Origin: Chryseobacterium aquaeductus | Lineage (GTDB): Bacteria; Bacteroidota; Bacteroidia; Flavobacteriales; Weeksellaceae | Direction: 5' to 3' | NCBI RefSeq assembly: GCF_905175375.1 | Contig: NZ_CAJIMS010000001.1 | Coordinates: forward strand, 1,736,001-1,800,000 | Length of the DNA: 64,000 nt | Shown here: piece after piece, positions 5,181 through 19,603 of the stretch | Layout: each line of letters begins with the position of its first letter | Position numbering within the stretch: position 1 is the first letter of the stretch | Notes under the pieces: generated by a model | Seen by the model: only the letters and a program-made list of their open reading frames with translations | Database searches by the model: none | Told to the model about the DNA's origin: nothing | Made by a program: the position numbers and the translations under genes

Positions 5181-5471
5181 ATGATGTTATCAGCGTTTTG
5201 GCCGTTTTATCAGTTCCTTTGGACAATCTATTTTGTTACAATGTTCCTAGTGGGATTCTGGTGTATTTTTATGTTCTTCGGTTTCGTTATCCCATTGTGG
5301 TTGACAGAAGGTTTGAAAGAATATTTCGGTAAGGTAAAACCTTTCGATCCTGAAGACATCAGAAGAAAATTGATTTACGAGCAGGAAGGTGTTGAGGTAA
5401 TCTTCAACCAGCCTAAAGGTCACGGACCTTTCATACACGATAGCCACGGGCACGACCACGGACATCATTAA
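5181..5471 (+). CDS. Small membrane protein with histidine-rich tail
   Basis: 96 residues of unknown function. Residues 1-45 are strongly hydrophobic and aromatic (WPFYQFLWTIYFVTMFLVGF, then IFMFFGFVIPLW), forming one or two membrane segments. A charged region follows (EGLKEYFGKVKPFDPEDIRRK). The tail, after a Gly-Pro linker, carries seven His in the last 13 residues (IHDSHGHDHGHH), which suggests metal binding. The start is supported by a promoter 20 bases upstream, and a terminator follows. The gene stands alone after the Fe-S fumarase, so a link to iron or other metal handling is possible but not shown. Confidence 0.8.
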   Translation: MMLSAFWPFYQFLWTIYFVTMFLVGFWCIFMFFGFVIPLWLTEGLKEYFGKVKPFDPEDIRRKLIYEQEGVEVIFNQPKGHGPFIHDSHGHDHGHH

Positions 5472-5535
5472 TTGAATGTCATTGCTTTTCCACCTTAATT
5501 CTGGAAAAGTGATATCATAGCAAAACAACATATAT

Positions 5536-5563
5536 TAAACCATTGATTTATCAGTGGTTTTTC
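5536..5563 (+). terminator. Intrinsic terminator
   Basis: Arms AAACCA-TGA / TCA-TGGTTT, with one mismatch, followed by TTTTT. It ends the His-tailed membrane protein gene. The remaining bases up to 5748 are A+T-rich, with one more small hairpin (CTTTTCCA/TGGAAAAG, 5484-5509) lacking a T run. Confidence 0.65.
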
Positions 5564-5748
5564 TGTTTTAGATATCATTTTCTTGAATCTAAGTTTTCTT
5601 TAAATCAGAAATATTTCCATGTTTTGTAATCGCAAACATGAAAATATTTTGCAAACAGTAGGTAGAATTGTATTCATTGAATAACAATTTCAAAAAGAAA
5701 TCAATAGAATTCCAAATTTTGTTTTATTTTTAAAGAAAAAATAATAAT

Positions 5749-8586
5749 ATGAAGAAAATATATTCGTTATTTTTATTGTTTATCACTGTCTGTATTTTTG
5801 GACAAATAAGCTATACCATTTCGCCAAACCCTTTTAATGAAACCGATCAGATCACTCTATCTGTTCCCGGAAATCAAATTGACGAAACTGCTTGGGGAGT
5901 TGCCAATAATGCTATCTACATCTGGACTTGGTCATTAGATCAGAACTATGCAAACAGTCAGGATTGTCCCACCAACGGAAGTTGGACAAATTCAAATGAA
6001 TTAAATAAACTGGCTTACAATGCTGGAACAGATACCTATTCTTTAACTTTTACTCCGACCACATTTTATGGACGTACAGGAATTGGAAGATTTGGTTTTT
6101 TACTAAAAACTAAAACAGGAAATCACCAAACGTCACCCGATATTTTTGTGAATGTGGGAACCTTAAATTTAAATTTAACAAATCCTGCTGCCAATAGTTT
6201 GACTTCAGTTCCTACAGGAAACGCTATTAATATCACAGCAACAGCCAATATCAATGCGACGTTTCAGTTAAAAGCAAACGGAATAGTTGTCAACTCAACT
6301 TCGACGCCATCTACTTCTTACAGTTATAGTTATACGGTTGCAGCAGATGCAGATATGGAGTTGATCGCAACGGCAAATTCAACAGTAAAAAATGCCACTT
6401 TCACATTACAGGTTCCGAGAAATGTGGTTTCACAGGCGATTCCAAGCTGGATAAGACAAGGGATTAATTATAATCCTACAGACAACACAAAAGTTGGTCT
6501 TGCTTTGTATGCACCTTTCAAAAATTTTGTTCATGTCATCGGAAGTTTTAACAACTGGGCGGTGAACGATACCTATTTAATGAAAAGAGACACTACAAAT
6601 CCTGATTTGTACTGGATTGAATTGAGTGGATTGACTCCTCAGCAATTATACACTTTTCAATATAGAACCAGTGATCTGAAAAAAGTAGCAGATCCTTTTT
6701 CACCTCAGATCTTATCTTCTTATGACGATCAGTATATTTCGGCAACTACTTATCCGGGGTTACCCGTTTTTCCTGCAGGACAAGGTTTTGAAGTTTCTAT
6801 GTTTAAAACAGGTCAAACGCCATACAATTGGCAAGTGACTAATTTCGCAAGACCGAATAAAGAGAATTTAATTATTTATGAATTGCTCTTACGGGATTTC
6901 ACACAAGAGAAAAACTGGCAATCTTTAATTAATAAGATTAATTATCTTAAAGATTTAAAAATCAATGCCATTGAATTGATGCCCATCATGGAATTTGAGG
7001 GAAATCTTTCTTGGGGCTACAATACATCCTTCCACTATGCTTTAGACAAAGCTTACGGAACACCGGAAAAATTCAAAGAATTCGTTGATCTCTGTCACCA
7101 AAATGGTATTGCGGTTATTTTAGATGTTGCCTTTAATCACGCAACGGGAAGATCGCCTTTAGTTAGACTTTGGAATATCGATCCGGACGGTGACGGCTAT
7201 GGTGATGTTGCGGCGAATAATCCTTATTTTAATACCGTTCCGAAGCATTCTTATAATGTCTTCAATGATTTCAACCATACAAGTTTAGCTACAAAATATT
7301 ATGTTGAAAGAACTTTACAACAATGGTTAACTGAATATAAAGTGGACGGTTTCCGTTGGGATTTAACTAAAGGATTTACTCAAAACTGTACTGCAAACGA
7401 TGAAACCTGTACCAATGCTTATCAGCAGGACAGAGTAGATATTCTGAAAGGTTATGCAGACAAACAATGGGCTCTTGATCCTACTTCCTACATGATTTTT
7501 GAACATTTGGGAACCGATGCAGAAGAGCAACAGTGGGCAAACTATAGAGTGGCTGAAGGAAAAGGTGTAATGCTTTGGAATAATCAAACCGGGGCGTACA
7601 ACCAAAATACAATGGGTTACAGCCAAAACAGCAATTTTGATAGAATGGATCATGAACTTCATAGTTTTACCAATATGCACGGAGTTGGCTATGGAGAAAG
7701 CCACGATGAAGAAAGATTGATGTTCAAAAATCTTGCTTACGGTGCAGTAAACGGAACATACAACGTGACCAACCTTACTACAGCTTTAGAAAGAATGAAA
7801 ACTTTCGGGGCAACATTCTTCACAATTCCGGGTCCGAAAATGATTTGGCAATTTGGAGAATTGGGATATGAATTCAGCATCAACAGATGTCCGGACGGAA
7901 CAATCAACAACAATTGTCGTACAGACGAAAAACCTGTTGCTTTCACTTTAGGCTATGATACCAATACCAACAGAAAAGCAATCTACAACACTTGGGCTCA
8001 AATTATTACTATAAGAAATGCACATCCTGTCTTCAGATCAAAAACCTACACCGTAGAATCTAATAATCTGGCGAATGACCCAAATGGTTTGATTACAAGA
8101 ATTTATATCAATGATCCGTTATTGACTGCAGGAGTGAAAAATGTTGTTGTATTGGCAAATTATGATACTTCGGCTAAAAATGTTGTTCCTTATTTCCCCT
8201 TTGCTGGGCAATGGCAGAATTTAATGGATAATACAGCGTTTAATGTCACTTCCACAACTGCACCGATTACACTTCAGCCGGGAGAATTCAGAATCTTTGG
8301 AAATCCTTTTACTACTTTGTCTACAACTGAAGAAAATTTAGATAAAAGATTGTCGCTTCAGATTGCAGATAATCCTGTGAAAAACGATTTGGCTAAATTA
8401 ATTTATCACAAAGCCAAAAACGGAGAGATAACAATTTACGATATGAGCGGAAAGAAAATGGATTCATTTAACTTAAAAAATGAAGATGGAACCTATGAAT
8501 TAAGAACAAATTATCCTGCAGGAACTTATCTTGTTCATCTGAAAACAGATAACGGAGTTGCCATTCAGAAAATGATTGTTCAATAA
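5749..8586 (+). CDS. Secreted GH13 alpha-amylase family enzyme with T9SS sorting domain
   Basis: 945 residues. A signal peptide (residues 1-19) is followed by two N-terminal beta-sandwich regions. The second (about residues 240-335, VHVIGSFNNWAV) resembles CBM48/E-set domains of amylolytic enzymes. The GH13 barrel spans about residues 370-780 with all catalytic residues visible: nucleophile D538 in GFRWD, acid/base E585 in MIFEHLG, and D653 in ESHDEERL; AFNHATG is the first conserved region. A C-terminal all-beta domain and a T9SS type A sorting domain (about residues 870-945, ending GTYLVHLKTDNG...) direct it across the outer membrane to the surface. Likely substrate is starch, glycogen or another alpha-glucan. 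No SusC/SusD genes lie beside it. Confidence 0.93.
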   Translation: MKKIYSLFLLFITVCIFGQISYTISPNPFNETDQITLSVPGNQIDETAWGVANNAIYIWTWSLDQNYANSQDCPTNGSWTNSNELNKLAYNAGTDTYSLTFTPTTFYGRTGIGRFGFLLKTKTGNHQTSPDIFVNVGTLNLNLTNPAANSLTSVPTGNAINITATANINATFQLKANGIVVNSTSTPSTSYSYSYTVAADADMELIATANSTVKNATFTLQVPRNVVSQAIPSWIRQGINYNPTDNTKVGLALYAPFKNFVHVIGSFNNWAVNDTYLMKRDTTNPDLYWIELSGLTPQQLYTFQYRTSDLKKVADPFSPQILSSYDDQYISATTYPGLPVFPAGQGFEVSMFKTGQTPYNWQVTNFARPNKENLIIYELLLRDFTQEKNWQSLINKINYLKDLKINAIELMPIMEFEGNLSWGYNTSFHYALDKAYGTPEKFKEFVDLCHQNGIAVILDVAFNHATGRSPLVRLWNIDPDGDGYGDVAANNPYFNTVPKHSYNVFNDFNHTSLATKYYVERTLQQWLTEYKVDGFRWDLTKGFTQNCTANDETCTNAYQQDRVDILKGYADKQWALDPTSYMIFEHLGTDAEEQQWANYRVAEGKGVMLWNNQTGAYNQNTMGYSQNSNFDRMDHELHSFTNMHGVGYGESHDEERLMFKNLAYGAVNGTYNVTNLTTALERMKTFGATFFTIPGPKMIWQFGELGYEFSINRCPDGTINNNCRTDEKPVAFTLGYDTNTNRKAIYNTWAQIITIRNAHPVFRSKTYTVESNNLANDPNGLITRIYINDPLLTAGVKNVVVLANYDTSAKNVVPYFPFAGQWQNLMDNTAFNVTSTTAPITLQPGEFRIFGNPFTTLSTTEENLDKRLSLQIADNPVKNDLAKLIYHKAKNGEITIYDMSGKKMDSFNLKNEDGTYELRTNYPAGTYLVHLKTDNGVAIQKMIVQ

Positions 8587-16930: not shown

Positions 16931-18265
16931 ATGGGAAATTTAAAACTAAAAGATATATTAAAATTAGGCTATCCAAACAATCAGAGCATAAACATCGCTT
17001 TGGAGGTGATGAAAAGAAATTTTGCAACCAAAAATATTCATTTTGTGAAATCTCTTCTAAAGGAAATTCAGCAAAATCCGGAGAACTTCGAGAAAGATTT
17101 AACCTTCGGACAAATTGCGGAAGCTTTGCTTTCATCAAAGAAAACTGAGAAAAGAATGCTCAACACCAACAGAGCGACTTTCCAGATTTTCGGAAATAAT
17201 ATTTCAGATGAAGCAAAAAACCAATTGTACACCGCACTAAAACTGCCAATTGAAACACAAGGCGCTTTGATGCCAGATGCACATAGCGGTTACGTACTTC
17301 CAATTGGTGGTGTTCTTGCTGTAGAAAATGCTGTAATTCCTTATGGAGTCGGGATGGATATCGGTTGCAGAATGTCGCTCAGTATTTTGGATACGCCAAT
17401 TTCATATCTCGATGGAGCAAGAGATAAATACGAAAAAGCGCTTGCTGAACACACGAAATTCGGGATGTACGAAACGCATAAATCTCACGTCGAGCACGAA
17501 ATTTTCAACAGAGATACGTTCGATTTAATTCCGATTTTGAGAATATTAAAAGGAAAAGCCATCAAGCAAATGGGAAGTTCTGGTGGCGGAAATCACTTTG
17601 TGGAATTCGGGGAAGTTGAAATTACGGAAGAGGACAAACAAATCAATCTTCCGAAAGGGAAATACCTCGGAATCCTTTCTCACAGTGGTTCTCGTGGATT
17701 GGGAGCAGAAATAGCTCAGTATTATTCGAGAGTCGCGACAGAACAATGTCCGTTGCCAAAAGAAGCGCAAAACTTCGCTTGGCTTGATTTAAACACGCAT
17801 CTCGGTTTAGAATATTGGACGGCGATGAATCTCGCAGGAGATTACGCTTCAGCTTGTCACGACGACATTCACAGAAGATTGGTAAAAGCAGTCGGCGGAA
17901 GAGTGAAAGCCAGAATCGAAAACCATCACAATTTTGCGTGGAAAGAAATTCACAACGGAAAAGAAGTGGTAGTTCACAGAAAAGGTGCTACTCCTGCCAA
18001 CGAAAACGAATTGGGAATGATTCCAGCTTCTATGACCGCAAAAGGTTTCATCGTCCGTGGAAAAGGAAATCCGGATTCGCTGAACTCGGCTTCACACGGA
18101 GCTGGGCGAGCTTTTTCGAGAGGCGAATGCAGAAACCGCTTCACCCAAAATGACATCAAGAAAGAATTAAAACTTAAAAATGGACAAAATAATACAAATC
18201 ACCTTGGGAAGAGGAACTTTAGAATGCCAGTGGGTAGTTGCCAAAGTTCTGAAAGTTTTCCTTGA
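16931..18265 (+). CDS. rtcB: RNA-splicing ligase RtcB, C-terminus lost
   Basis: 444 codons. RtcB joins RNA 2',3'-cyclic phosphate (or 3'-phosphate) ends to 5'-OH ends using Mn2+ and GTP. Metal and GMP sites are visible: D143 and C146 in GMDIGCRMS, SSGGGNHFVEFG, LSHSGSRGLG, NHHNFAW, and the guanylated histidine H349 in VVHRKGATPA. Homology stops after RCRNRFTQNDIKKELK-like sequence near codon 417. The last ~27 codons are prfH DNA read out of frame. The normal ~60-residue end (AYK..I..VM..Q..LV...P type, with a GMP-contacting lysine) is missing. So the coding region is open but probably damaged. It overlaps the prfH remnant by 86 bases. Confidence 0.85.
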   Translation: MGNLKLKDILKLGYPNNQSINIALEVMKRNFATKNIHFVKSLLKEIQQNPENFEKDLTFGQIAEALLSSKKTEKRMLNTNRATFQIFGNNISDEAKNQLYTALKLPIETQGALMPDAHSGYVLPIGGVLAVENAVIPYGVGMDIGCRMSLSILDTPISYLDGARDKYEKALAEHTKFGMYETHKSHVEHEIFNRDTFDLIPILRILKGKAIKQMGSSGGGNHFVEFGEVEITEEDKQINLPKGKYLGILSHSGSRGLGAEIAQYYSRVATEQCPLPKEAQNFAWLDLNTHLGLEYWTAMNLAGDYASACHDDIHRRLVKAVGGRVKARIENHHNFAWKEIHNGKEVVVHRKGATPANENELGMIPASMTAKGFIVRGKGNPDSLNSASHGAGRAFSRGECRNRFTQNDIKKELKLKNGQNNTNHLGKRNFRMPVGSCQSSESFP

Positions 18266-18590
18266 GGAAGCAATGCAATGTGATGTCACGAATCTCAATA
18301 CTCCAAGATATTACATCAAATGTCTATTGGATAATGAAGATTTGGAGGAAGCAGAAAAACTTATTAATTATTCTTTGAAAATAAAAGGAATTGATAAAGC
18401 AACAATGTGGTTTTACAGATCTCTGCTTTCAGAAAAAAGAGGAAGTTTTCTTAATGCATTAAAATTTTTAAGTGAATCGGAAAAGTATTGCTTCTCTTCA
18501 CAAAGTCTTGATGTTGTGAAAGATCGTAAGAAATTTATAAAATCTAAAATGCCTAAGAAAAAATCTAAAAACAGGAAGGAGACGAAATAA
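18180..18590 (+). pseudogene. prfH: prfH 5' remnant fused to a TPR-like tail
   Basis: 136 codons. Residues 1-31 (MDKIIQITLGRGTLECQWVV, then AKVLKVFLEEA) match the start of peptide chain release factor H, the rescue factor commonly encoded right after rtcB. PrfH is about 200 residues and has a GGQ loop; here the match stops after FLEEA and no GGQ follows. The remaining ~105 residues look like TPR repeats (DNEDLEEAEKLINYSLKIKG; TMWFYRSLLSEKRGSFLNAL) with a very basic end (KKKSKNRKETK). The fusion is in frame and ends at a terminator, so a chimeric protein may be made, but it cannot act as a release factor. Origin of the tail is unknown. Confidence 0.75.
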
Positions 18591-18603
18591 GTCTCCTTTT
18601 TTT
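18576..18603 (+). terminator. Intrinsic terminator overlapping the stop codon
   Basis: GGAGAC-GAAATAA-GTCTCC followed by TTTTTTT. The TAA stop of the chimeric frame lies in the loop. Confidence 0.9.
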
Positions 18604-18615
18604 GTAAATTTAATT

Positions 18616-19603
18616 ATGGAATTACGATTCAAACTTAAAAATCTACTCTTAAAAGAAACATTCTCCATCGCGTATGGAAACTACAATCACCGTGACGCCT
18701 TGCTTGTAGAATTATCTCATCAAAGCGAAAAAGGTTATGGCGAGTGTGTTGCGATTGATTATTATCAGATTAATCTTCAAAGTTTTGTTTTAAAAGTAAA
18801 AGAAATTCAGGATCAGATTGAAACTCAAAAAATCATTCATCCAAAAGAATTTTTTCAATTTTTATTGAGTTTAAATCTGCAACCTTTCTTGCTTTCAGCA
18901 CTAGATTGTGCGTATTGGGATCTTTTCGGAAAGTTGGAGAACAAAAGTTTTATTAAATAAACTTCCTTCTGAAAATTTAGTCGAAAGTTCGATTACGATT
19001 TCTGTTGCCAAAATTGAAGATCAAATTAAAAAAATCAAAAATAGTAATTGGGACAAATTCAAAGTAAAATGCAAAGGTTTAAATAAAAACAATGTTGAAA
19101 AACTTTTAGAATTAAATAAAAATATTGCCCTAGATTCGAATGCCAGTTTTACAGATGAAGATTGTATTTGGCTTCAGGAAAATCCTGAAATTCAAAAATT
19201 TACATACTTGGAACAACCAAGACCAGTTGATCACTTTCAAATTTTACGGAAAAATAATTTTGCCAATTGGATGGCGGACGAAGATTGTCAGAATTCAGAT
19301 TCTTTGACAGAATTACTTCTATATTATAAAAGCATCAATATCAAATTAATGAAATGTTGCGGATTAACTCCCGCTTTAGAAATGATTAAAAAAGCAAAAG
19401 AACTCAATTATAAAATCATGATTGGGTGCATGACAGAATCCACAGTCGGAATTTCTGCAGCTTGTCTTTTAACTGGGCTTGTTGACTACGCCGACTTGGA
19501 TGGTGCAACACTTATCTCCAATGATTATGCTGACGGAAGTTTTGTTGAAAACGGTAAAATATTTTTATCTGAAAAACCAGGTTTGGGGATAAAACTGAAA
19601 TAA
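18616..19603 (+). pseudogene. Dipeptide epimerase (enolase superfamily), frameshifted
   Basis: The gene reads MELRFKLKNLLLKETFSIAY...LDCAYWDLFGKLENKS and hits TAA at 18958 in this frame. The protein continues in the next frame from LLNKLPSENLVESSI to 19603. Removing one T from the TTTT run at 18948-18951 restores one ~328-residue frame. The restored product has the muconate-cycloisomerase/Ala-Glu epimerase plan: KVKCKG with the catalytic lysines, metal ligands in ALDSNAS, YLEQP and MADEDCQ, and the second lysine in NIKLMKCCG. Such enzymes epimerise L-Ala-D/L-Glu from peptidoglycan. All active-site residues survive, so the lesion is recent or a sequencing error. Confidence 0.85.

Follow-up and report, generated by a model that had tools for sequence, protein, structure and literature searches.

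The stretch of Chryseobacterium aquaeductus DNA analysed here (64,000 nucleotides, below called the window) carries what is very probably a decayed ribosome-repair operon of the layout rtcB-(NTase)-prfH-TPR (NTase, nucleotidyltransferase), and the chimeric reading frame in it has most likely been left behind by accident and is not a new protein. On the best reading, the decay of this known anti-ribotoxin module is recent. Decay is favoured because syntenic orthologues are intact in relatives, the junctions carry repeats and the spacing between the parent sites is nearly invariant, and because no other genome with the fusion occurs among the matches listed. It is favoured further by the conservation of the lost parts, the frameshift in the neighbouring epimerase gene, the decay of the module elsewhere in the genus, and the precedent of a deletion reported for E. 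coli K-12 and O157 (PMC1586002).

Layout of the locus

In the window, rtcB and, after it in the same orientation, prfH survive only as remnants, which are truncated when set against intact syntenic orthologues, as in pseudogenes formed by deletion. The chimeric open reading frame (18180-18590, + strand, ATG start, 136 aa) overlaps the end of an altered rtcB frame (16931-18265, 444 aa). The features are as follows.

16931..18181, + strand: rtcB, RNA ligase, codons 1-417 kept (up to 97% identity to relatives over 416 residues; Pfam RtcB)
18182..18265, + strand: out-of-frame extension of rtcB, 27 residues and a stop, running through the prfH fragment (the frame of the chimera is +1 relative to rtcB)
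18176..18182, + strand: junction 1, where a deletion brings rtcB codon ~417 up to the prfH ATG, A-rich microhomology AAAAATG
18180..18272, + strand: prfH 5' fragment, PrfH residues 1-31 (alignment to relatives' PrfH)
18262..18273, + strand: deletion junction 2, TTGAGGAAGCAA, prfH codon ~31 to TPR gene codon ~66, 787 bp gone
18273..18590, + strand: accessory TPR gene, 3' portion, corresponding to residues ~66-169 in the intact form (alignment to relatives' TPR gene)
18576..18604, + strand: intrinsic-terminator-like stem and T run, operon end, ancestral (common to 21/31 relatives)
18616..19603, + strand: dipeptide-epimerase-like pseudogene in two frames, 18616-18960 and 18908-19603 (ORF comparison)

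The epimerase neighbour is a single unbroken ORF of 330 aa in L118 and L119 and is frameshifted near 18955 in the window. The copy in L033 carries a separate split of its own.

The operon in related genomes

In relatives, rtcB (463 aa) stands first, then in some an NTase gene (181 aa), then prfH (232 aa) and, last of the four, a TPR gene of about 170 aa (169-171 aa in six loci), the start of which overlaps the end of prfH by 14 bases in L036 and L033. Beyond the TPR gene lie the epimerase gene in some relatives, then two small cytochrome-like genes and meaB. Among 20 loci of the same genus, rtcB was found in all 20, prfH in 19 and the TPR gene at the syntenic place in 18, which bears out the proposal of the earlier note that an rtcB-prfH pair has collapsed around a prfH fragment of ~95 bases. 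Its statement that both genes lost sequence is right as far as it goes, as rtcB and prfH are both shortened, but in full the losses take in three or four genes of a single operon.

Across the genus, rtcB was matched at E 1e-60 in 169 of 173 genomes, and 124 of 173 gave an NTase match, which in a few genomes is fragmentary. The prfH query found matches in 173 of 173 genomes, in 166 of them with E 1e-60 or better; in the other seven (G000, G003, G114, G115, G123, G165 and G173) E gets no better than about 1e-22 to 1e-24, and these matches are taken as other release factors or fragments. The chimeric ORF as a query, which in effect searches for the TPR tail or the PrfH start, found matches in 168 of 173 genomes and none in G003, G114, G115, G123 and G165. 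At 18 prfH loci from other genera of the family, the TPR gene lies directly 3' of prfH in 13 and ~3.5 kb away in one, with no TPR match in four.

To judge by sequence, the operon is also decaying independently in other species: only prfH codons 169-232 remain in G173, rtcB and prfH are both frameshifted in G135, the TPR gene is broken in G178, and the rtcB rows of G011 and G081 contain an in-frame TGA.

Some loci differ in the accessory genes. The optional NTase (L036:6169-6711) has a weak likeness to aminoglycoside/lincosamide nucleotidyltransferases, with 22.7 bits for Pfam PF10706 (cut-off 21) and scores far under the cut-offs for the NCBIfam Lnu models. In L104, L113 and L115, which belong to other genera, a zinc-type protein of ~195 aa with a CxxC motif (read by eye) sits between rtcB and prfH, the slot held by the NTase in the genus of the window. 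At L037 (G003:C2:2857000-2873000), about seven copies of the 3' end of rtcB stand in tandem behind an intact rtcB at ~5310-6800 (reversed), each unit consisting of the last ~45 rtcB codons and a terminator-like palindrome, with a period of 226 bp given by the repeat finder. By eye, these copies start in the same A-rich stretch of rtcB where deletion 1 of the window ends; the L037 genome has no match to the NTase, to the TPR gene or, other release factors aside, to prfH.

Two deletions and their junctions

Set against the relatives read, the window has two deletions in an ancestral rtcB-(NTase)-prfH-TPR operon. Deletion 1 joined rtcB codon ~417 to the start codon of prfH, and deletion 2 removed 787 bp between repeat copies of ~10-12 bp in prfH and the TPR gene, thereby fusing both in frame. 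Replication slippage or microhomology-mediated deletion may account for both events.

For junction 2, the distance from prfH codon 29 to TPR codon 63 is 787 bp in 30 of 31 relatives and 789 bp in L097. Four relatives carry an in-register direct repeat of 10 bp at the two parent sites, GAGGAAGCAA in L033 and TTGAGGAAGC in L036, L088 and L094, while the window has a single TTGAGGAAGCAA with prfH to its left and the TPR gene to its right. In the remaining 27 relatives, the longest in-register run is 2-9 bp and is sometimes found away from the junction site. The longest word common to prfH codons 1-60 and TPR codons 1-100 measures 7-13 bp in relatives, and in L033, L036 and L088 this word is the junction 2 repeat itself; on these sequences, a 10 bp word common to the two genes is by itself not rare.

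The codons at the junction spell LEEA in prfH and FEEA in the TPR gene. The direct repeat lies in one and the same codon register in prfH and in the TPR gene, which puts their fusion in frame, and since the in-frame join is thus forced by the repeat, the open frame is no evidence of function. This carries a more general caution, as an open frame over a deletion junction is to be expected whenever the repeat register matches in the two genes.

At junction 1, AAACTTAAAAATG of rtcB is joined to the prfH ATG, and AAAAATG is common to both parent sites in L088 and L096. The length of deletion 1 is estimated at ~220-770 bp, depending on the presence or absence of the NTase, from ten relatives (L033, L036, L088 and L090-L096) after subtraction of the 16 bp that remain in the window.

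The fusion appears to be restricted to this genome. Among the matches listed for the 168 of 173 genus genomes that respond to the chimera query, no other genome has a row spanning residues 1-136, and the rows of other genomes begin at query residue 22-34. A protein search with the chimera gave P0001 as the only fusion protein among the 120 listed of 522 matched, and it is taken as the window's own; P0069 and P0108, which have long query coverage among the listed proteins, are ordinary TPR proteins when read. The junction-1 DNA has 0 matches in the genome contig collection, which may omit the records of this genome. A fusion common to related species was rejected, as no second spanning match occurs among the matches listed, and a literature search at the level of titles found none describing a prfH-TPR fusion.

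What remains of PrfH and the TPR protein

The earlier note had read the chimera as PrfH residues 1-31 with a foreign tail joined in frame, and had made the match of the N-terminus to PrfH one of the points on which this reading turned. The match was found: a relative's PrfH aligns to chimera residues 1-36 with 83% identity (E 3.6e-14, tblastn), and by eye L036 PrfH agrees with the chimera at 29 of the first 31 positions. The NCBIfam PrfH model gives a weak partial match to residues 5-36 of the chimera (E 0.043). With TIGR03072, the window ORF scores 13.3 bits and L036 PrfH 215.2 bits against a cut-off of 166.65, so the chimera is not a PrfH by this model. The catalytic RF-1/GGQ domain is lost in the window, and PrfH would consequently be inactive. 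No second full PrfH was found in the genome with the L036 PrfH query, for which the best E is 2.5e-22, on a scale where the same query reaches at least E 1e-60 in 166 of the 173 genomes of the genus.

The tail had been called unrelated in the earlier note. Alignment to the TPR gene that lies 3' of prfH in relatives rules this out, and shows the tail to be the last ~104 residues, the body, of that accessory gene, with 81-92% identity in L033-L036, L038 and L039, falling to ~43% in remoter relatives. TPR residues 1-65 are deleted and with them the four N-terminal helices, without which the TPR protein would probably be inactive. Among 48 TPR homologues, 38 of 65 positions are invariant in the deleted N-terminus versus 30 of 104 in the remainder, a modest signal, as circular shifts of the invariant positions equal that enrichment in 925 of 20000 cases. 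The chimera does not reach a Pfam TPR assignment (TPR_19 12.7 bits, cut-off 25), and the intact L036 protein does so with both TPR_2 (27.8 bits, cut-off 27) and TPR_19 (27.3 bits, cut-off 25). The AlphaFold2 model of the intact TPR protein has nine helices and is of low confidence in the first 70 residues (mean pLDDT 71.4); that of the chimera keeps the last five of these nine (mean pLDDT 78.1), with block means of 87-97 over residues 41-120 and values of about 43-61 in the PrfH part.

A terminator belonging to the tail had also been proposed, and a stem GGAGAC..GTCTCC with a T run does stand there, read by eye in the window, where a consensus scan gave this stem for the - strand only. It is not a novelty of the chimera, as the same stem passed a strict test in 21 of the 31 relatives having the TPR gene, and the terminator is on this comparison ancestral.

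RtcB and the possibility that it still acts

As the earlier note had it, the normal C-terminus of RtcB is replaced by sequence read in another frame: 417 codons are kept, the 44 C-terminal residues of the intact protein are gone, and the ORF stops at 18265 after 27 frame-shifted residues foreign to RtcB. Two codons near the start are also missing in comparison with L036. The Pfam RtcB model PF01139 is matched over positions 1-378 of 426 in the window and 1-423 in the intact L036, so that the window falls short of a complete RtcB ligase domain. With the C-terminal part of its fold missing, RtcB is expected to be inactive.

Of the alternatives, the one that survives best is that prfH and the TPR gene alone are dead and that the shortened RtcB is retained as a working RNA ligase, which is very unlikely, although compatible with the main reading of the chimera. 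In its favour, the retained 416 residues are up to 97% identical to relatives and the pN/pS of rtcB is ordinary. Against it, the lost tail includes the EEAPxAYKD stretch, which aligns to the solved chains TTHA1785 (2epg) and PH1602 (1uc2), and the end is now a foreign tail of 27 residues. Two columns that do not vary elsewhere among 34 sequences are also changed in the window RtcB, by G122V (GYG motif) and by R205I, and the same genome holds a second, distant RtcB with an open frame of 466 codons (G000:C1:260519-261283). A second RtcB is also present in the 35 relatives of the same genus that were compared; in G021 it is in pieces.

Selection on the remnants and the status of the chimera

Ordered by pN/pS, the window comes 9th of 34 for rtcB, 27th of 32 for the tail and 1st of 33 for the prfH fragment, though the last has only 31 codons. 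Intact control genes of the window come high as well, with meaB 3rd of 30, scpA 5th of 20 and cytB 2nd of 33, and cytA is 7th of 32; for the two halves of the epimerase the places are 13th of 21 and 3rd of 20. Changes private to the window at otherwise invariant columns number two in rtcB, one in the prfH fragment and none in the tail. In sister-triple tests, neither rtcB nor the prfH fragment nor the tail shifted significantly; for cytB, p was 0.011 and 0.039 in two of four triples. By these three measures no excess amino-acid change is seen in the remnants, which means that the event is recent relative to species divergence or that a product is still constrained.

The chimera could accordingly be imagined as a functional new protein, a PrfH N-terminal leader on TPR C-terminal helices that works with RtcB or alone, and this is highly improbable. 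Its 136 codons are open, an A-rich stretch lies ahead of the ATG, the tail helices are predicted with confidence over residues 41-120, and the tail has no private change at invariant columns. On the other side, the repeat forces the in-frame join, the more conserved TPR helices and the catalytic domain of PrfH are gone, RtcB as the presumed partner is itself cut short and has the G122V change, the fusion is seen in one genome only among the matches listed, and the neighbouring epimerase is frameshifted. The more specific form of this idea, a translated adaptor of 136 residues made of the PrfH start and the last five TPR helices that acts with the RtcB paralogue or ribosomes, is likewise very doubtful. 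Were the chimera functional, a gene would have been born by deletion, which is not where the evidence leads. The earlier note had left the choice between a dying locus and a new TPR fusion protein; the former is favoured, as the in-frame join follows from the repeat. In the favoured reading, decay of the operon, the chimeric ORF would be a by-product without a selected role.

An assembly artefact, in which the genes are intact in the organism and two stretches were collapsed by the assembler, is extremely unlikely: the sequence does rest on a single assembly, but two independent collapses would be needed at repeats of ~7 and 10-12 bp, which are probably too short for this, the 3.49-Mb genome is in 2 contigs and 99.94% complete, and the same operon decays independently in related genomes.

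Comparison with known systems

The accessory genes of the operon are not new. Burroughs and Aravind (2019, PMC6514570) describe RFH-RtcB operons whose accessory genes are of the TPR, Pol-beta NTase and ZnR kinds, so the TPR, NTase and zinc genes do not count as new partners in the operon. The operon of the relatives has the same kinds of genes as given there, and the tail of the chimera comes from the TPR accessory gene. The window differs in that the operon is broken and the NTase and the zinc gene are both absent. The Chryseobacterium RtcB scores under the NCBIfam cut-off for PrfH-linked RtcB (143.5 against 271.8 bits, intact L036). An rtcB2-prfH module is reported to act in vivo against colicin E3 (PMC9223846); the two gene families are the same, but the module is intact and protective there and both genes are truncated in the window.

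The locus points to the stepwise loss of a sporadic anti-ribotoxin repair module through short repeats in its own genes, and the in-frame ORF left over by accident is one that automatic annotation would call a protein. A close parallel is in E. coli K-12 and O157, where a deletion of ~1000 nt over the rtcB/prfH border is reported by Baranov et al. (2006, PMC1586002). In those rtcB2-prfH pseudogenes, as in the window, the C-terminal part of rtcB and adjoining prfH sequence were lost and the remnants joined. By the same source, E. coli has one deletion, which takes the start of prfH, whereas the window has two, keeps the start of prfH and fuses it to a third gene. The window adds one more case to a kind of loss already known, and what is peculiar to it is the two deletions and the accidental TPR fusion.
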